Positions 11,027 through 58,877 of a DNA stretch of 64,000 bases are shown in pieces (the stretch's first letter is position 1; every line of letters begins with the position of its first letter). Where the stretch lies: assembly GCA_947462765.1 (NCBI GenBank), contig CANHQK010000003.1:1-64000 (forward strand), written 5' to 3'. The notes below the pieces were generated by a model. That model searched no databases and was not told the origin of the DNA. It saw nothing but the letters and a program-made list of their open reading frames with translations. A program made the position numbers and the translations under genes. Source of the DNA: Bdellovibrionales bacterium. Its GTDB lineage: Bacteria; Bdellovibrionota; UBA1018; CAIMNF01.

Positions 11027-12451
11027 TCACCCGACCGAACCCTCGAGCTTGAGCTCGAGCAAACGATTGGCCTCCAGAGCGAACTCCATCGGCAATTGCT
11101 TGAACACTTCGTCACAGTATCCGTTGATGATGAGCTTCACGGCCTCCTCGGCTTCGATTCCACGGGACTGAAGATAAAACAGCTGATCCTCACTCACCTT
11201 CGAAGCGGTTGCCTCGTGTTCCACCACCGCAGTGGGATTACGGACCTCGATATAGGGAATGGTGTTTGCCGTGCACTTGGCACCGATCAGCAAGGAATCG
11301 CACTGTGTGTGGTTCCTGGCCCCTTCTGCACCCGGAAGGACCACCACGCCACCGCGGTAAGTGTTGCGCCCCTCCCCGGTCGAAATGCCCTTGGAGAGGA
11401 TCCGACTCTTGGTGTTCTTGCCGATATGGATCATTTTTGTCCCGGTATCGGCCTGCATCTTATCATTGGTGATGGCGACTGAATAAAACTCACCAGTGGA
11501 GCCATCACCCTCAAGAACACACGAAGGATACTTCCACGTCACCGAAGAACCGACCTCGACCTGCGTCCAGGAGATCTTCGAGTTCCGGCCCTTGCACAGT
11601 CCTCGTTTTGTAACAAAATTATAGATTCCACCCTTGCCCTCGGCATCGCCGGAATACCAGTTCTGAACAGTGGTGTACTTGATCACGGCACCCTCGAGAG
11701 CGACGAGCTCCACAGTCGCTGCATGGAGTTGGTTCTCATCGCGCATGGGGGCCGTACAACCTTCCATGTAACTCACCTCGGAGCCCTCATCCGCGACAAT
11801 CAGCGTGCGCTCGAACTGACCGGTGCCTTGAGCGTTGATCCGAAAGTAAGTGGACAGATCAAGCGGGCACTTCACACCCTTCGGGATGTAAACAAATGAG
11901 CCATCGCTGAACACCGCAGCATTCAGCGCGGCATAGTAATTGTCCGTGGCAGGCACCACCGACCCGAGGTATTTCTTTACGAGCTCGGGATGCTCCTTCA
12001 AGGCCTCGGAGATCGAACAAAAAATGATCCCGTGTTTTTTCAGCTCCTCGCGTTGGGTGGTGACAACCGAAACCGAATCGAACACCGCATCGACAGCCAC
12101 ACCGGCCAACATCTTTTGCTCGTGAAGCGGAATCCCCAATTTTTCGTAGGTTTCGAGCAACTTCGGATCGACCTCATCGAGGCTGTTCAGCTTCTTTTTC
12201 TGCTTGGGAGCGGAGTAATAGCTGATGGCCTGGAAGTCGATCTCAGGATAGGTCACGTCCGCCCACTTGGGCTCCTTCATTTTCTGCCAGATGCGGAAGG
12301 CCTTGAGCCGGTACTCGAGCATGAACTCGGGTTCTTCTTTTTTCCCTGAAATGAAGCGGACCGTTTCCTCGCTCAGGCCCGGGGGCAGGCGGTCTTCTTC
12401 GATATCGGTCACAAATCCGTATTTGGAATAGTCCTTGTTCTGAAAATCCAT
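11027..12451 (-). CDS. sufB: SufB, Fe-S cluster scaffold subunit
   Basis: A 474-residue SufB of normal length, the scaffold of the SufBCD complex on which Fe-S clusters are built. Recognisable blocks are [26 protein letters not shown], the beta-helix core, and [19 protein letters not shown] near the C-terminus with the conserved Cys ([10 protein letters not shown]) region. It is separated from sufC and sufD by sufS, sufU and sufT, an order unlike E. coli sufABCDSE. It is followed directly by the mevalonate-pathway genes. Confidence 0.97.
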
Positions 12452-12455
12452 AAAT

Positions 12456-12761
12456 TCACCAGATCCCTAAACGGTCTTTGACTTCATCCGAAGCCATGGT
12501 CTTCGGATCCCACTTCGGCTCGAACACGAGCTTCACTTCCGCCTCTTTCATCCCCGGATACTCAAGGAGGCGATTCTTGACATTTGCCACGAAAGTGTCT
12601 GCAACAGGGCAGTGCGGGCTGGTCAGGGTCATCACCACATCAGCACCGGTTTTCTCAGTACGGAACGAGGCCTCGTAAATCAGACCGAGATCCACAATCG
12701 ACAAAAACATCTCCGGGTCCTGAACCGGATGCAACCATTCGAGAAGCACGGGATCACGCAT
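12456..12761 (-). CDS. sufT: SufT-like MIP18/DUF59 Fe-S maturation protein
   Basis: A 101-residue single-domain MIP18 family protein ([34 protein letters not shown] with the conserved Cys, [13 protein letters not shown]). Such proteins assist late Fe-S cluster delivery. The ATG at 12761 overlaps the sufU stop by 8 bases. A longer frame exists but lies wholly within sufU. Cytoplasmic. Confidence 0.9.
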
Positions 12762-13194
12762 GAGGAGTCTCCAATCCTTTCTTGAGGGTGGTCCAGGGTA
12801 GCAAGGCGCACTTGATCCGAACCGGAAAGCGCTTGATGCCGTAAAGGGCCACGATATCCTCGGATGAATCTTCAGAGGGGAGCACATCAGGCCGATCCTC
12901 ACCCTGCATCTTGGCACGGAACCCCTCGATGAGACCGGAAACGCGATCGAGCGGCTGGCCCTGGACCATCTCGGTCATGATGCTGGCAGACGCCATGCAG
13001 ATCGAGCAGCCCTCCCCTTCGAAAGTACAGCTCACCAGCTTCCCGTCACGCATCTTCAATCCCAGTGTGACCTTGTCGCCGCAAAGCGGATTGAACCCGT
13101 TCTCACGGATCTCGGCATCGACCGCCAAACCCCAATTCCGGGGTGATTCGTGATGGTCAGCTAACACTTCTCCAAAGACGTCACGATAGTTCAT
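12754..13194 (-). CDS. sufU: SufU-type sulfur carrier/scaffold
   Basis: A 146-residue U-type protein. Metal ligands are visible: NPLCGD (Cys38, Asp40), GCSIC (Cys63 and Cys66) and a C-terminal IKCALLPW Cys. In Bacillus and mycobacteria, SufU accepts sulfur from SufS through a zinc site, replacing SufE. It lies directly after sufS with a 4-base overlap, which supports that partnership. Length is normal. Confidence 0.93.
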   Translation of the reverse strand: MNYRDVFGEVLADHHESPRNWGLAVDAEIRENGFNPLCGDKVTLGLKMRDGKLVSCTFEGEGCSICMASASIMTEMVQGQPLDRVSGLIEGFRAKMQGEDRPDVLPSEDSSEDIVALYGIKRFPVRIKCALLPWTTLKKGLETPHA

Positions 13195-14423
13195 GAACTC
13201 TTCCTTCTGAAGAACTGGGGGGCGCTCTTCAATGCATCGATGAGCTGATCCGCCTCCTCGAGAGTGTTATAGAAACTGAAACTGGCCCGGCATGTCGCCG
13301 GCAGACCAAGACGCAGCATGAGCGGATGGGCACAATGGTGGCCCGCACGCACTGATATACCCCTCATATCCAGAAAGGTCGCCAGGTCGTGAGCATGAAC
13401 ACCATCGATCGCAATGCTGAAAATCGGGGCACGGTGATGCGGATCCTTGGGCCCCAGCAAGCGCAGACCGGGAATGGACACGATCCGTTCGAGAACATAA
13501 GCGGTGATGCGATCCTCGTACTCCTGGATCCGGGTACGGCCCTGGGTCTCGATATAATCGATGGCAGCCCCTAGACCGATCACGCCAGCGATATCAGGCG
13601 TGCCGGCCTCGAACTTATGCGGGAGTTCGTTCCACTCGGAGTCCAAATCACCCACGTGAGAGATCATGTTTCCGCCCACCTGATAGGGCGGCATACGGGA
13701 GAAAACCGCTTCCCGGCCCCAAAGCACGCCGACTCCGGTCGGTCCGCACAGTTTGTGGGCCGAGAATGCCAGGAAGTCAATGGGCCCGAGGCGGGAGATC
13801 TCGACCTCCCCATGAGCGATGCCTTGCGCAGCGTCGACCACGATCGTACTGCCGACCAGCTTAAACCGTGAAGCAAGCGAAGCAACGGGGTTGGTCACCC
13901 CGGTCACGTTGCTCAAAAGCGAAACCGCGAGAATCTTGGGTTTCAAGGCAAGAACACGGTCCACTTCTTTGGGATCGAGCCGAAGATCAGAGGTCAGCTC
14001 GATGATTTCGAATCGGGCACCCTTCCGTTTTGCGAGCTGTTGCCAGGGCACGAAATTGGCATGATGCTCCATTCGCGTAACGGCGATCACATCTCCAGGA
14101 CCGACCGTGCTCTCACCGAAAGCCGATGCGATCAAATTGATGGCTTCGGTGGTCCCTTTGGTGAATACGATCTCACGTTCGGATGCGGCACCCAGAAACC
14201 GGACCACCTTGCTCCGGACCGATTCAAACGCATCTGTGGCCTCCTGGGAGAGTTTGTAGACTCCGCGGTGTACATTGGCATTGGTCTCGAGATAATACCG
14301 GACGATCGCATCGACCACTTTCTTCGGGCGTTGGGAAGTCGCCGCATTGTCGAGGTAGCACAAGGGCTTGCCATCGACCATTCTGGAAAGGATCGGAAAA
14401 TCGCGCCGGATGAGCTCGTTCAT
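13191..14423 (-). CDS. sufS: SufS cysteine desulfurase
   Basis: A 410-residue PLP enzyme that takes sulfur from cysteine and hands it to SufU. The PLP lysine lies in FSAHKLCGPTG, and the catalytic cysteine in RAGHHCAHP. The N-terminal YLDNAATSQRP is typical of group II desulfurases. The ATG at 14423 has AGGAGG 7 bases upstream and forms an ATGA overlap with the sufD stop; a GTG two codons upstream is less likely. Confidence 0.96.
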   Translation of the reverse strand: MNELIRRDFPILSRMVDGKPLCYLDNAATSQRPKKVVDAIVRYYLETNANVHRGVYKLSQEATDAFESVRSKVVRFLGAASEREIVFTKGTTEAINLIASAFGESTVGPGDVIAVTRMEHHANFVPWQQLAKRKGARFEIIELTSDLRLDPKEVDRVLALKPKILAVSLLSNVTGVTNPVASLASRFKLVGSTIVVDAAQGIAHGEVEISRLGPIDFLAFSAHKLCGPTGVGVLWGREAVFSRMPPYQVGGNMISHVGDLDSEWNELPHKFEAGTPDIAGVIGLGAAIDYIETQGRTRIQEYEDRITAYVLERIVSIPGLRLLGPKDPHHRAPIFSIAIDGVHAHDLATFLDMRGISVRAGHHCAHPLMLRLGLPATCRASFSFYNTLEEADQLIDALKSAPQFFRRKSS

Positions 14424-15223
14424 GACCACTCCTCCTCGAGGACACCGAGGCGGGATTCGATCTCATGTCGGATGGAAACATCCGAGATCCACTCGAGAGG
14501 CTGCCGTAAGAACCCTTTGAGCATCATCGCCTCAGCGGTCTCAGGATCGATTCCCCTCGCCTGCAAATAATAAGTTTGCTCGGGCTCGAGCGAACTCGTA
14601 CTGCTCCCGTGAGCACATTTCACCTCATCGTTCTCAATGAGGAGTTTCGGAAAGGAATCGACCGTTGCATGCTTCGAAAGCATGAGATTCCGGTTTTTTT
14701 GAAAAGCCTCGGTCCTGGGAGCCGACTGCAGGATGTGGATCCTGCCATTAAACACCGTACGGGACTCATCCCGCGCTGCACACCACACTTGTAAATCGCT
14801 ATAGGTGTCAGAAACAGAATGCACGGCATCCGCACGAATCGAGAATTGCTGTCTGGCCTTGGCATTTAGCAATCCACGAAGCTCGATGCGCGCACCCCGC
14901 CCCTCTACGGAGGTGTCGATCTCAAACGCAGATTTTGCCCCGCCATCGAGAATGACCGTCAGCTTGAGCGCGCTGTCAGACCCGGCTTTCACCCTGACAC
15001 GGGAGAGCGACTCCACTTCGGCGGAAGTGGCTTGTTCGATCACCATCTCGAGTCGGGCACCTTCGCCCAGGTTGATGTCGATTTCATGAACACCACTCAC
15101 ATTCGGGATCCGGTAGTGCTGCACGCCCAAGGAGGGATTGCGTCCTGCGACCACCTCAACCGCATGGCGACTCCCGGGTCCCGGAACGGCGTCCTTTGTT
15201 TTGAAGATCTGATATTCTTTCAT
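14420..15223 (-). CDS. sufD: short SufD subunit of the SufBCD complex
   Basis: A 267-residue SufD, much shorter than the roughly 420 residues of E. coli SufD. The beta-helix core and C-terminal helical domain are intact, including VKCAHGSSTSSLEPEQTYYL with the conserved functional His, followed by LQARGIDPETAEAMMLKGF. What is missing is the N-terminal domain. The reading frame is open and well started (ATG 15223), so this looks like a natural short form, not a broken gene. Confidence 0.88.
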   Translation of the reverse strand: MKEYQIFKTKDAVPGPGSRHAVEVVAGRNPSLGVQHYRIPNVSGVHEIDINLGEGARLEMVIEQATSAEVESLSRVRVKAGSDSALKLTVILDGGAKSAFEIDTSVEGRGARIELRGLLNAKARQQFSIRADAVHSVSDTYSDLQVWCAARDESRTVFNGRIHILQSAPRTEAFQKNRNLMLSKHATVDSFPKLLIENDEVKCAHGSSTSSLEPEQTYYLQARGIDPETAEAMMLKGFLRQPLEWISDVSIRHEIESRLGVLEEEWS

Positions 15224-15229
15224 GACCGA

Positions 15230-15973
15230 TCAGGCGCCTTCCACCCAGTCATAGCCGCGCTCTTCAAGCTTGAGAGCCAGTTCCGGGCCTCCGCTTTCAA
15301 GCACTCTTCCGCTACCGAACACATGAACCACATCCGGTTTGATATAATTCAACATCCGCTGGTAATGCGTGATCACAAGCATGCCCCGGTCGGAGTTCCG
15401 GAACGACTGGAGGTTCTCCGAGACAATCCGGAGGGCATCGATATCGAGGCCGGAGTCGGTCTCATCGAGGACGGCCATCTTGGGTTGGAGCAACCTGAGC
15501 TGAAGAGTTTCGAGACGCTTCTTTTCCCCTCCGCTGAACCCCTCGTTCAAGGAGCGGGTCATGAACGCCTCGGGAATCGAAAGGTGTTTGAGTTCTTCCT
15601 TGATCAGTGCGCGGAACTTGGAGGGTTCGATCTCGCCGGCACGAACGGATTTCATCGAAGCCCGGAGAAAGGAAGCGACACTGACACCCGGGATGGCAAC
15701 CGGATATTGGAAGGCCAGGAATAGACGCTTCTTGGCACGTTCCTCGGGCTTCAAATGGGTGATGTCCTCACCATCCAGCAGGATGCTCCCGGAAAGCACC
15801 TGGTATTTGGGATGTCCCATCAGGGTGTAGGAGAGCGTGGTCTTTCCCGTACCGTTACGGCCCATGATGGCGTGCACTTCTCCGCGGCGAACCACGAGGT
15901 TGACGCCTTTCAGGACTTCTTTGCCTTCCACGGCGACGTGAAGGTCACGGATCTCGAACAATGGTGCACTCAT
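15230..15973 (-). CDS. sufC: SufC ATPase
   Basis: A 247-residue ABC-type ATPase that powers the SufBCD scaffold. Walker A is GRNGTGKTT, the signature is GFSGGEKKR, Walker B is MAVLDETDSGLD, and the switch His is in VITHYQRML. Size and motifs match SufC. Start (15973) and rrf2 stop overlap as ATGA. Confidence 0.97.
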   Translation of the reverse strand: MSAPLFEIRDLHVAVEGKEVLKGVNLVVRRGEVHAIMGRNGTGKTTLSYTLMGHPKYQVLSGSILLDGEDITHLKPEERAKKRLFLAFQYPVAIPGVSVASFLRASMKSVRAGEIEPSKFRALIKEELKHLSIPEAFMTRSLNEGFSGGEKKRLETLQLRLLQPKMAVLDETDSGLDIDALRIVSENLQSFRNSDRGMLVITHYQRMLNYIKPDVVHVFGSGRVLESGGPELALKLEERGYDWVEGA

Positions 15974-16464
15974 GATCTCAGCTCCCCTTTTCTCATCTGA
16001 CCGACATGATCACTCGCGATCGAGCGTGTTTTGTCGCGGATTTCCTCCTCGGGCCGGATGAGGTCGGCCAGAGTCATTCTCGAAGTGAACTCTTCAACGT
16101 ATCCTGAAAGCAAATCCCAGAACGGACGGATCGAACAGGACCCGAATCGCACGCAGGCGTCTGACTTTCCGGTAAAGGACTTGCAAAATTCCGAACCGGA
16201 CTTCTTCCTGCCGTTCAGCGCATCGAGCACCTCTTTCAGGGAGATCTCAGCGGGCTGCCTCGAGAGAGCGAAGCCCCCTTTGATTCCGCGGACAGTGCGA
16301 ACGAGCTCGGCCCGCTTCAAAAGCAACATGAACTTGGAGACGTACTCGATGGAAAGTCCTTCGCGCTCCGCAATTTCCGGAGCCGACAGGGTGGTCCCTT
16401 CGGGCAAAGACGCGAGTTGAACCGCACAACGCAGTCCGTATTCCTCCAAAGCGGTGACGTTCAT
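15970..16464 (-). CDS. Rrf2-family Fe-S-sensing regulator of the suf operon
   Basis: A 164-residue Rrf2/IscR-type repressor, first gene of the suf operon. The winged helix-turn-helix is at about 5-65 (LSIEYVSKFMLLLKRAELV, RGIKGGFALSR). Cys94, Cys104 and Cys110 form the Fe-S ligand pattern seen in IscR and SufR. It likely senses cluster status and represses suf through the palindrome at 16522-16554. The 4-base overlap with sufC couples regulator and operon. The name SufR or IscR would need experimental support. Confidence 0.9.
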   Translation of the reverse strand: MNVTALEEYGLRCAVQLASLPEGTTLSAPEIAEREGLSIEYVSKFMLLLKRAELVRTVRGIKGGFALSRQPAEISLKEVLDALNGRKKSGSEFCKSFTGKSDACVRFGSCSIRPFWDLLSGYVEEFTSRMTLADLIRPEEEIRDKTRSIASDHVGQMRKGELRS

Positions 16465-16516
16465 GGCCTCGGATCATGCCACGAGACCCGGATTGAAACA
16501 ATACTTTTTTGTACGG

Positions 16517-16546
16517 ATTTTAGTCTAATCTGTTGAAATCCAACAA
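16517..16546 (-). promoter_or_regulatory. candidate suf operon promoter
   Basis: On the minus strand, TTGTTG (16541-16546) and TAAAAT (16517-16522) are separated by 18 bases, about 50 bases before the rrf2 ATG. The spacer and -35 lie inside the palindrome at 16522-16554, as expected for a repressed promoter. TTGGAT with a 15-base spacer is an alternative -35. Confidence 0.5.
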
Positions 16547-16554
16547 CTTAGACT
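16522..16554. promoter_or_regulatory. 33-bp imperfect palindrome, likely Rrf2 operator
   Basis: Plus-strand arms AGTCTAATCTGTTG and CAACAACTTAGACT flank a 5-base centre (AAATC); 12 of 14 arm positions pair. It sits exactly between the bamB stop and the rrf2-suf promoter. There is no T-run on either side, so a terminator is unlikely. Position over the -35 and spacer of the suf promoter makes autoregulation by the adjacent Rrf2 protein the best inference. Confidence 0.6.
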
Positions 16555-17684
16555 CACGGTAGGTAGCGAAAGGCGTAGAGGTTTCCGCCTCGGCTCATGG
16601 CAAAGAGGGTGCGGCGCTTGGCATCGTAGGCGAGATTACCCGTGAACCCCGAACCATAGCCCACCTGAAAACGGTCCACCAAGGCCCCGGTCTCCCGGTC
16701 GAGGGTGTACAAATATTCATTGCTGGAGCTGAACACCACATGGCGACCGAGCACCAATACCCGAGAAGGAACCCCTTGATCGAGTTCGAACTTCCAGATT
16801 CCTTTCCCGGTCTTGGCATCGAGTGCGTGAACCTCACCCGCAGAGGCCGGCACGAACAGGGTGTTACCCGAAAGGGTCACCGCATTCGATCCTCCGAGGT
16901 CCTCTCGGGCCCACAGGGTACTCCCCGTCCGGGCATTCAAAGCATAGAGCGCATTATCATAAGCCGGCACATAAACGATTCCGCCCGACTCGAGGAACTC
17001 GGCTCCGAGACTTGAAAAACGCCGGTTCGGATTCAATTGTTTTTCCCAAAGGACCTTACCGTCCTTACGAGAGAGTGCCACCAGGGCGCCATCTGCAAAA
17101 CCAACCCAAAGGGTATCTCCCAGCACCAGCGGTTTCGAGCCCCCATGAAGTCCGGGACCGCTCGCGTTGCGCCGACGGTAGTGCCATTGCCACTTCCCCG
17201 TTTTCGATTCAAGACTGAGCAAGGCATCGTCGCTGGTCACAATGTAGAGGTCGTCTCCATCCAGGGCGGGACGGGATGCCACCGGGTTCCGTAAGGGGTA
17301 GGTCCAATTGACCTTGCCGGTGTCGAGCGAGATCGAGTAGATGTTTCCGTCTCCACCCGTGAAAAACGCATTTTCCTTCCCGGGCTCAATCTGACTGAGC
17401 ACCCCGTTTGGAAGTGGCAACTTCCACCGGGGACGCGGAATCCTGGGATACATCGCTGTCAGGCCGAAGCGACTGCTCCCAAAAATGAGGGTGGTCTCGT
17501 GGAATACGGGGCTCGAATACTCCATTCCCGGCGTGGCAAGGGAGCTCGAATCCGGTTGAATGGCGTAGGTCCACTGCCTGCGAAGCACCTCACGTTCGGG
17601 ACGGAAGCCTACACGCAAATCCCTCGAACTGCATGCAGTCAGAACCAGGAGTCCGAGTGCGACAACCGCCGGAATCCGGATCAT
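16554..17684 (-). CDS. bamB: BamB outer-membrane assembly lipoprotein
   Basis: A 376-residue PQQ-type beta-propeller lipoprotein of the BAM complex. The signal peptide ends in the lipobox LTAC (Cys18). Repeated propeller blades follow, each with a D-x-x-T-G-x-x-x-W type loop (SLDTGKVNWTY, SKTGKWQW, NARTGSTLWA, DAKTGKGIWKF). The neighbouring YfgM-like gene repeats the E. coli order yfgM-bamB (der, the third gene there, lies far away here). Confidence 0.9.
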   Translation of the reverse strand: MIRIPAVVALGLLVLTACSSRDLRVGFRPEREVLRRQWTYAIQPDSSSLATPGMEYSSPVFHETTLIFGSSRFGLTAMYPRIPRPRWKLPLPNGVLSQIEPGKENAFFTGGDGNIYSISLDTGKVNWTYPLRNPVASRPALDGDDLYIVTSDDALLSLESKTGKWQWHYRRRNASGPGLHGGSKPLVLGDTLWVGFADGALVALSRKDGKVLWEKQLNPNRRFSSLGAEFLESGGIVYVPAYDNALYALNARTGSTLWAREDLGGSNAVTLSGNTLFVPASAGEVHALDAKTGKGIWKFELDQGVPSRVLVLGRHVVFSSSNEYLYTLDRETGALVDRFQVGYGSGFTGNLAYDAKRRTLFAMSRGGNLYAFRYLP

Positions 17685-29483: not shown

Positions 29484-29531
29484 TCGGCGCCCCACAAGTG
29501 TCCCCCTCAACCCCTCAACCCTACCCTCGAG

Positions 29532-29570
29532 CCGGGGACGGAGTCAGACTCCGTCTCCGGTTTTTTCTTT
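29532..29570 (+). terminator. rho-independent terminator
   Basis: A 13-bp stem (CCGGGGACGGAGT / ACTCCGTCTCCGG, one G-T wobble) with a 3-base loop, followed by TTTTTTCTTT. It ends the sigma-54-driven gene at 29160-29483. It also covers the last codons and stop of the convergent gene at 29544-29870. Confidence 0.9.
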
Positions 29571-36735: not shown

Positions 36736-36819
36736 TGAGAGCCTGGCCCGGCCGGACCCTGAACAGATTCGGCCGGGCCCCCCTTAAGTCCTGAGCAAAT
36801 CCTGCCGATCAGTCGTACA

Positions 36820-57221: not shown

Positions 57222-58387
57222 AAGCCACGCCCCTTCTGTTCGAGGATCCCCGACAAAGCACCCAGGAATCCCTCCACTTCCGCAGAGCTGTGTTCAGGAC
57301 CCAAGGAAACGCGGATCGAGTTGAGCGCGGCCTCGCGTGTAGCCCCCATGGACAAGAGCACTCTGGAGGGCTCGATCACTTTAGCCTTGCAAGCGCTTCC
57401 GTGACTGACGGCGAAACCCCTTAAGTCAAGGAGCTCGATCCAGTTCTCATATGACTGGAATTGTTTGAAACTGAAACGGGTCGTATTGGTAATCCGGCGT
57501 TCCTGCCAACCCCAGATCTGTATGGAAGGATCGATACGAACCAACCCTTCTTCGAGCATTTTTTGCAAAGGAGCTGTCTTGCGCTGAAACCCGACCGGGT
57601 CCAACTCCTCGCACGCGAATCGCGTGGCGAGAATGCCAAGCACATTCTCGGTTCCACCCCGAAGACCGCCATTCTGGGAGCCGGTCAAAAGCGGAACCAG
57701 CCGGGCTCCCGGGCGTCTCCAAATGAGACCGGTACCGGCCGGCGCACCGATTTTGTGCGATGAAAAGGTCACGAAGTCCGCGGGTGAAGCCGAGACATCG
57801 AGAGGAATCTTTCCCCAAACCTGGGCTCCGTCGAGATGCAAGCGCACCTCCACCCCGGATTCACGCATGATCCGGGACAATTCCCCCAGCGGAGTCAGTA
57901 CGCCGGTTTCATTGTTCGCCCAGAAAAGGCTCAATCCGATCGACCGGAGACCCCGGCTACGGGCTTCTTTCAACAGCTCCGCAAGACGCGCAAGATCGTA
58001 AGCGCCCTCGGGAAGGAGGGGCAATTCCGCCTTGAACGGGACACCCAGTTCCTCGAGCAGATCGTGGCTGGCGGAATGCTCACCGGCACCGATGATCATT
58101 CCCTCCACGGTCCGCTCCAAGCTCCGGATCACGGTTTGGTTTGCCTCCGTTCCGGAGGAAACCCAGACCAATTCGTCGGGAGAAACCGCCTGCCCCAAGG
58201 ACCGTGCCACCACAAGGGAGGCCTCGTACAAGAGGTGCTGGATTTTCTGACCCGGACGGTGCCGGCTGGATGGATTCGCCAGGTACAACTCCTCGTTCTT
58301 CAAGAACGAGATCAGTCGGTCCCTGAGCGAATGGCTGATACCCGCGGAAGCGTTGTAATCAAGATAGTGGACGTTCTTTTGCCACAT
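57218..58387 (-). CDS. NifS/IscS-type cysteine desulfurase
   Basis: A 389-residue PLP enzyme. The PLP lysine lies in FSSHKIGAPAGTG, and the catalytic Cys in SHGSACKAKV, placing it in group I (NifS/IscS) rather than SufS type. It likely feeds sulfur to tRNA modification, as it is followed by the MnmA-like and MtaB genes. Its start overlaps the end of the rrf2 gene by 29 bases. Confidence 0.9.
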   Translation of the reverse strand: MWQKNVHYLDYNASAGISHSLRDRLISFLKNEELYLANPSSRHRPGQKIQHLLYEASLVVARSLGQAVSPDELVWVSSGTEANQTVIRSLERTVEGMIIGAGEHSASHDLLEELGVPFKAELPLLPEGAYDLARLAELLKEARSRGLRSIGLSLFWANNETGVLTPLGELSRIMRESGVEVRLHLDGAQVWGKIPLDVSASPADFVTFSSHKIGAPAGTGLIWRRPGARLVPLLTGSQNGGLRGGTENVLGILATRFACEELDPVGFQRKTAPLQKMLEEGLVRIDPSIQIWGWQERRITNTTRFSFKQFQSYENWIELLDLRGFAVSHGSACKAKVIEPSRVLLSMGATREAALNSIRVSLGPEHSSAEVEGFLGALSGILEQKGRGL

Positions 58388-58877
58388 CCGGTGTCACGCT
58401 TCCCGCTCCGGAGGAGCTGCTCCGGTTCAGCAACTGAGTTCCCGACTTCGGAAGCTCTTGTTGGCCGCGTGCCTTGCGGATCAGATCGCCCACGCTAGTC
58501 GTGGTCAGATAATCCTGCATGATGGTACCCAAGTTCTCGAAATAAGACTTGGTGAGAACAAATTCCACCGTGTCACTCTTCAGGTCGCCGCTACCGATCA
58601 AATCTTTGGCCGGATTGATATTTTCGCCTACTGAGGTCAGAACCTCACGTACCGAAATCTCATCCATGGTCCGGGACAACACATAGCCACCCCCTGGTCC
58701 ACGCACGGATTTCACCACGGAGCCCTTACGAAGCCTGCGGAACAATTGCTCCAAATAATGGAGCGAAATGTTCTGCCGCTCGGAAATCTCCTGTAAGCGG
58801 ACGGGCTTCCCGTTCGAATGGAACGAGAGATCAAGAATGGCACGGACTGCATAACGGCCTTTGGATGTTAAACGCAT
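58359..58877 (-). CDS. Rrf2-family regulator without cluster cysteines
   Basis: A 172-residue IscR-like repressor with the full winged helix (MRLTSKGRYAVRAILDL, NISLHYLEQLFRRLRKGSVV, RGPGGGYVLSR). The loop that carries the three Fe-S cysteines in IscR has none here (INPAKDLIGSGDLKSDT), and the protein has no cysteine at all. It must therefore sense something other than a bound cluster, or act constitutively. GCAGGAGG lies 7 bases before the ATG. First gene of the rrf2-nifS-mnmA-mtaB-rnc-era-der run. Confidence 0.88.
   Translation of the reverse strand: MRLTSKGRYAVRAILDLSFHSNGKPVRLQEISERQNISLHYLEQLFRRLRKGSVVKSVRGPGGGYVLSRTMDEISVREVLTSVGENINPAKDLIGSGDLKSDTVEFVLTKSYFENLGTIMQDYLTTTSVGDLIRKARGQQELPKSGTQLLNRSSSSGAGSVTPDVAKERPLS

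Follow-up and report, generated by a model that had tools for sequence, protein, structure and literature searches.

The window, a stretch of 64,000 nucleotides (64 kb) analysed as a whole, carries a suf operon headed by a gene for an Rrf2 family regulator, in the order rrf2-sufC-sufD-sufS-sufU-sufT-sufB, and all nearby genes lie on the minus strand. The features relevant here are the following:

11027-12451, minus strand: sufB (NF008773, 867 bits)
12456-12917, minus strand: sufT-like (SUF-associated) protein (TIGR02945, 79.8 bits, below cut-off)
12754-13194, minus strand: sufU (TIGR01994, 126 bits, cut-off 92.5)
13191-14429, minus strand: sufS-like cysteine desulfurase (from the ORF list and the sequence)
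14420-15223, minus strand: sufD (TIGR01981, 192 bits, below cut-off 222)
15230-15973, minus strand: sufC (TIGR01978, 331 bits)
15970-16464, minus strand: Rrf2 family regulator with C94, C104 and C110 (PF02082, 91.9 bits; TIGR00738, 88.6 bits)
16473-16481, minus strand: predicted extended -10 element, TGG followed by CATGAT (by-eye alignment)
16496-16501, minus strand: predicted -35 element TTGTTT, at a conserved position and overlapped by the dyad (by eye)
16496-16519, minus strand: candidate operator AATCCGTACAAAAAAGTATTGTTT, a 24-bp imperfect dyad (conservation; recurrence at nfu and iscS)
16522-16554, minus strand: 33-bp palindrome, most likely a 3'-end hairpin of the bamB-like mRNA
16554-17684, minus strand: bamB-like gene (TIGR03300, 142 bits, below cut-off 285)
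58359-58877, minus strand: IscR-like second Rrf2 protein, with the three cluster cysteines lost and the YLEQ helix kept

An earlier note on this DNA had described the first gene of the operon as an Rrf2 protein with the three Fe-S cysteines, and this was borne out. Both family scores exceed their cut-offs (30 bits for PF02082, 73.3 for TIGR00738), and C94, C104 and C110 are invariant in 14 Rrf2 orthologs, as is S43-K44 in the recognition helix. The ORF listed for the sufT-like protein overlaps sufU by 164 bases; its true start probably lies downstream, inside the ORF.

The same note had placed the palindrome over the -35 element and spacer of the likely rrf2-suf promoter. The promoter implied by this, TTGTTG-N18-TAAAAT in our reading of the sequence, is not conserved. 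By-eye alignment revealed a conserved promoter-like pair nearer to rrf2, TTGTTT-N17-CATGAT with an extended TGG (16501-16473). Again by eye, the 17-bp spacer from -35 to -10 is found in most of the 11 family orthologs, and the -10 in most of them is CATGAT or a variant, usually with TGG before it. The palindrome sits 20 bp or more upstream of this conserved -35, and its far end runs into the bamB-like stop codon. Since a sigma-70 scan of 16350-16700 gave no consensus match, the promoter call rests on conservation. The -10 of the window ends 8 nt before the rrf2 ATG (16464-16481), and the rrf2 transcript is predicted to start about 1-2 nt before the ATG, which would make it near-leaderless. Several members of the genus have 11-20 nt more between the candidate operator and the rrf2 start. 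At one family locus (L008), TTGTTTAAGG is duplicated about 50 bp upstream of rrf2; there it is the second copy that supplies a -35 at the proper distance from the -10, with the candidate operator 10 bp further upstream.

The 33-bp palindrome downstream of the bamB-like gene

The inverted repeat (arms 16522-16535 and 16541-16554; AGTCTAATCTGTTG-AAATC-CAACAACTTAGACT) has exactly the geometry given for it earlier, namely 14-nt arms with 12 of 14 pairs (86%) and a 5-nt centre. As minus-strand RNA it folds with -12.3 kcal/mol (z -3.5). When the 92-bp intergenic stretch was shuffled 20,000 times with dinucleotides preserved, a comparable repeat arose in 19 cases, and three such repeats were observed in the 64-kb window against 1.2 (sd 1.1) expected by shuffling; the palindrome is locally unusual, but not rare given the size of the window. 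Read on the minus strand, it begins on the final base of the bamB-like stop codon (16556-16554).

Footprinting covered the rrf2 upstream DNA of 11 orthologous loci from one family (L001-L011). The palindrome is kept in three of them (L001-L003), which belong to the window's genome and its two closest species, the latter at 95-96% protein identity. It is absent from the other eight (L004-L011), which have no comparable hairpin fold at this place (z -0.5 to +1.5). A DNA search of 13 family genomes found the full-length palindrome only at the three orthologous places, and a search for a second copy within the 64-kb window found none. Two of the checks that the earlier note had proposed, conservation upstream of orthologous suf operons (the lack of which was to count against an operator) and occurrence elsewhere in the genome, hence came out negative.

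Among L001-L003, 1-3 of the 33 bases differ pairwise (91-97% identity); for the final 300 bases of bamB the identity is 84-86%. One G-C pair of the palindrome is replaced by A-U in L002, with G-U as an intermediate in L003; L002 also loses the end pair. The start at the bamB stop codon, the paired change and a divergence somewhat slower than that of bamB coding DNA favour, weakly, an RNA hairpin of bamB, and a 3'-end hairpin of the bamB-like mRNA is in our view the most likely identity of the palindrome. It does not have the form of an intrinsic terminator, as its stem is A+T-rich and is followed by AAAATCC with no T tract, and a terminator scan of 16350-16700 returned 0 terminator-like sites. 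The two other repeats of the same class in the window, 36745-36779 and 29530-29562, occur shortly after ORF ends, at distances of 47 and 9 bp, and the one at 29530-29562 has a T run after it on the plus strand, as expected for 3'-end hairpins.

Two other explanations of the palindrome were weighed. It is possible, though doubtful, that it is a chance repeat with no function, an alternative that concerns the hairpin part of our reading and no other. The 1.2 such repeats expected in a shuffled window agree with this, as does the lack of conservation outside three close species; the start at the stop codon, the one compensatory pair and the somewhat slower divergence than in bamB coding DNA disagree. 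We consider very improbable the earlier note's proposal that the palindrome serves as the operator of Rrf2. The eight family orthologs without the palindrome all keep the adjoining 24-bp dyad, searches showed neither a further copy of it within the window nor a full-length one at any other place in the 13 family genomes, and about 20 bp separate its near edge from the conserved -35 downstream. These points outweigh its quality as an inverted repeat, its local rarity in the shuffles and its higher identity in the two nearest relatives than that of bamB coding DNA. The case shows that an eye-catching palindrome may draw attention away from a fainter, conserved dyad next to it.

A 24-bp dyad upstream of rrf2 and of other Fe-S genes

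Two bp from the palindrome and overlapping the -35, a block common to all 11 family rrf2 upstream regions contains a dyad with the consensus AATCnnTAC-N6-GTAnnGWTT. The TAC and GTA half-sites, six bases apart, are conserved, and so are both flanks. In the window's own copy the left outer half is degenerate and 6 of 12 dyad positions match; more distant orthologs display the symmetric form outright, for example AATCAATACTTAGAAGTATTGATT (L024). Of the 58 genomes searched in the class, 16 bear rrf2, and in all 16 the dyad upstream of this gene scored at least 12/14 on the 14 positions of the consensus. Across the phylum (368 genomes searched), 26 of 31 rrf2 orthologs reached at least 12/14 and 24 at least 13/14, compared with 14 and 2, respectively, among 1289 background windows from those loci, counts that overstate independence because the motif was partly built on the scored rows and near relatives repeat one another. 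An earlier scoring with CAATAC-N6-GTATTG gave at least 10/12 in 20 of 31 orthologs versus 9 of 2780 windows, the 10/12 of L107 being at another place. The five phylum orthologs below 12/14 are L098, L110, L101, L105 and L130. L098 and L110 lie beside suf genes, yet their dyads score 9 and 10; no suf gene was detected beside rrf2 in L101, L105 and L130.

With at most 1 mismatch allowed, a search of the window's genome for the 24-bp pattern gave five distinct places, and a reversed-pattern control 0. Three of the five are upstream of rrf2-suf, of an Nfu-type protein and of an IscS-like protein. A perfect dyad stands 7 bp before the start of the protein with an Nfu/NifU-type C-terminal domain (C36:19523), and another dyad 19 bp before the IscS-like cysteine desulfurase (C15:2000); both loci are unlinked to rrf2-suf. 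The earlier suggestion of a lineage-specific, non-IscR operator at rrf2-suf holds for the dyad at 16496-16519, conserved phylum-wide and recurring at these two Fe-S loci, and fails for the palindrome to which it had been attached. A further match of the pattern, G000 C2:96301, is inside a long ORF and has no evident meaning. At the remaining one of the five, G000 C16:22060-22083 (L170 2561-2584), AATCCGTATTTTCCGGTAAGGATT lies between apparently convergent genes and is conserved in G003 and G008, with no target seen.

Within the window's family (f1), the dyad upstream of nfu scored at least 12/14 in 10 of 10 rrf2-bearing genomes scored, and that upstream of the iscS-like gene at least 11/14 in 12 of 13 genomes, G012 scoring 10. 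Outside the family, genomes without rrf2 gave at most 10 in 32 of 32 nfu upstream regions and at most 9 in 27 of 27 iscS upstream regions, that is, 0 of 59 with the site. The five rrf2-bearing genomes outside the family have the nfu site only in G014 (13/14) and the iscS site in none. That these five mostly lack the nfu and iscS sites indicates that the wider regulon is local; rrf2-suf would be the ancient target, and nfu and iscS probable targets in f1. Of 49 genomes with an nfu match, 48 were scored (all except G041); G005 gave no nfu match at the threshold, but its site is visible at a contig end (L173), ahead of an Nfu-like start. The iscS scoring comprised 45 of 52 matched places, leaving out G050 C91 as too short, G035, G036, G047 and second copies in G023, G049 and G050. 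In two cases the upstream DNA was short (75 bases for nfu in G013, 62 for iscS in G055).

Other patterns were tried and rejected. The looser TACNNNNNNGTATTG matched 4 places in the window's own genome, three of them chance-like by their G+C-rich centres. TACNNNNNNGTATTGWTT found places in 24 of 58 genomes; of three examined outside rrf2 promoters, those in G040 and G056 are coding and that in G038 has no evident target. G038, in which neither rrf2 nor sufC was found at the thresholds used, carries the dyad AATCAATACTTTCAAGTATTGATT near 1686 of L131 (G038 C49), with no clear target.

The protein that may read the dyad

In the genomes compared, the dyad is not only conserved, symmetric in form and recurrent but also nearly restricted to those that bear rrf2. 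Within the class, rrf2 is present in 16 of 58 genomes, all among the 18 of 57 with sufC. G042 and G050 have sufC, no rrf2 and no dyad (best scores within 900 bp: 8 and 10 of 14), and the f5 and f6 genomes are without the dyad. In the sister families f23 and f24 both half-sites are shifted towards CTTTAC-N6-GTAAAG, and Rrf2 has T at recognition-helix position 46 instead of M/L. This covariation of helix and half-site may be a single event, and L107 fits it poorly. If true, it would provide a naturally occurring pair of variants, in recognition helix and half-site, with which to study DNA choice by Rrf2 proteins.

Two genomes of the same genus as the window's, G009 and G010, had no rrf2 or sufC that we could find. 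G009 keeps the iscS dyad (12/14), and G010 keeps both the iscS (11/14) and the nfu dyad (14/14). Their sites may be explained by suf-rrf2 lying in a missing part of the assembly, by a recent loss, or by another protein reading the site. A missing contig is possible, the G010 and G009 assemblies being 87% and 93% complete. A bamB search in both genomes found other DNA after bamB, so a simple contig gap at the old place is unsupported, and we counted this against our reading.

These two genomes, which keep nfu/iscS sites and the IscR-like gene with no suf-type rrf2 found, are what would favour binding of the dyad by the other Rrf2 protein of the window, the cysteine-less, IscR-like product of 58359-58877, or by another regulator. 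We nevertheless judge this unlikely. Upstream of the IscR-like gene stands a half-site of its own, the IscR-like ATATAGTTGACT, conserved in 9 of 11 family members; the product of this gene has the IscR-type recognition helix YLEQ, and throughout the phylum it is the suf-type rrf2 that the dyad accompanies. Still less credence is given to the explanation that the conserved block is promoter only, a -35 with an upstream element and no operator. The block does overlap the -35 TTGTTT in the family, but both half-sites at their distance of six bases are conserved along with both flanks, f23 and f24 alter both halves together, and the same dyad stands 6-9 bp before the nfu ATG, so that it is no -35 for that start. 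The suf-type Rrf2 remains our preferred reader of the dyad. The product of 58359-58877 is possibly a cluster-free IscR; its gene heads a cysteine desulfurase and an MnmA-like gene (named by eye).

Proposed mechanism and comparison with known Rrf2 systems

We hold with good confidence that the dyad is an Rrf2 operator through which rrf2-suf, and in f1 also nfu and iscS, would be repressed, and that the palindrome is most likely a bamB 3'-end hairpin. To judge from sequence, Rrf2 probably switches several Fe-S-cluster genes via the dyad in these Bdellovibrio relatives. Binding, cluster, repression and direction of response we infer as follows. A dimer of Rrf2, probably with a Fe-S cluster on C94/C104/C110, would bind the dyad across the -35 and block RNA polymerase at rrf2-suf; plentiful clusters would keep rrf2 and the suf operon down, and cluster loss would release them. 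In f1 the same Rrf2 would hold the dyad over the predicted -10 of nfu, encoding a Fe-S carrier, and of the iscS-like gene, resulting in a small Fe-S regulon of rrf2-suf, nfu and the IscS-like cysteine desulfurase. The location of the dyad over the -35 (rrf2-suf) or over a predicted -10 just before the ATG (nfu, iscS) fits repression by polymerase block. If true, this would define a specific operator and regulon governing Fe-S genes in a phylum whose bacteria are predator-related and for the most part uncultured, and the Rrf2 regulators of SUF and ISC would gain an operator type set apart by its half-site.

The core of the IscR type 1 site is GAC-N7-GTC. By eye, the dyad with its TAC-N6-GTA core corresponds neither to this site nor to the type 2 consensus as quoted in PMC11475020. 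The Rrf2 protein resembles E. coli IscR in its Rrf2 fold, its Fe-S sensing cysteines and the putative autoregulation of a Fe-S operon, and differs from it in carrying S43-K44 in the recognition helix versus E43-Q44. Against the IscR equivalog model TIGR02010 it scores 61.5, below the cut-off of 207.55. The closest solved structure by sequence is PDB 4cic (profile search, E 3.7e-23), an entry titled BadM/Rrf2 family, which we take to be Thermincola potens IscR; its helix reads YLEQ versus YVSK here. The second-best NCBIfam match is TIGR02944, the Xanthomonas-type SUF regulator and like our protein a SUF-linked Rrf2, with 72.4 bits, below the equivalog cut-off of 110.65. No operator for the TIGR02944 regulator was found in the open-licence PubMed Central literature searched.

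A further parallel is RisR of Myxococcus xanthus. RisR is an Rrf2 protein with three cysteines encoded by the first gene of risR-sufBCDSUT; its site is T(t/g)GAC-N7-GTCC(t/a) with the core GAC-N7-GTC, and the holo form represses suf and isc, cluster loss being thought to release both (PMC9973013). By analogy with RisR as described there, holo-Rrf2 is expected to repress and cluster loss to release (PMC9973013). The two systems share a three-cysteine Rrf2 heading a SUF operon with a site that overlaps promoter hexamers, control of a second, unlinked Fe-S locus (the isc operon for RisR; putative here), and base-contact residues that depart from those of E. coli IscR (PMC9973013). Unlike the RisR site in the form given there, AATCnnTAC-N6-GTAnnGWTT has another half-site and a centre one base shorter, and the conserved dyad does not match the RisR operator type (both by eye). 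The operon also differs from the one described, with sufC first here and sufB there.

The dyad is apparently an undescribed site, distinct from those of IscR and Myxococcus RisR, and neither it nor an Rrf2-suf regulon in this phylum is described in the open-licence PubMed Central literature searched. We think it rather likely that it represents a separate class of SUF-linked Rrf2 operators across many families of the Bdellovibrionota-like phylum, with half-sites and recognition helix altered jointly in one sister group, a three-locus regulon in f1, and one non-IscR sensor beside a cysteine-less IscR-like protein. A comparable case of a lineage-specific palindromic Rrf2 site over or near -35/-10 regions is the Iron-Rhodo-box of Rhodobacter IscR, as presented in PMC4618611. 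The Iron-Rhodo-box differs in being a 19-bp box on iron uptake and storage genes, and Rhodobacter IscR in ligating its cluster through a single cysteine (PMC4618611).
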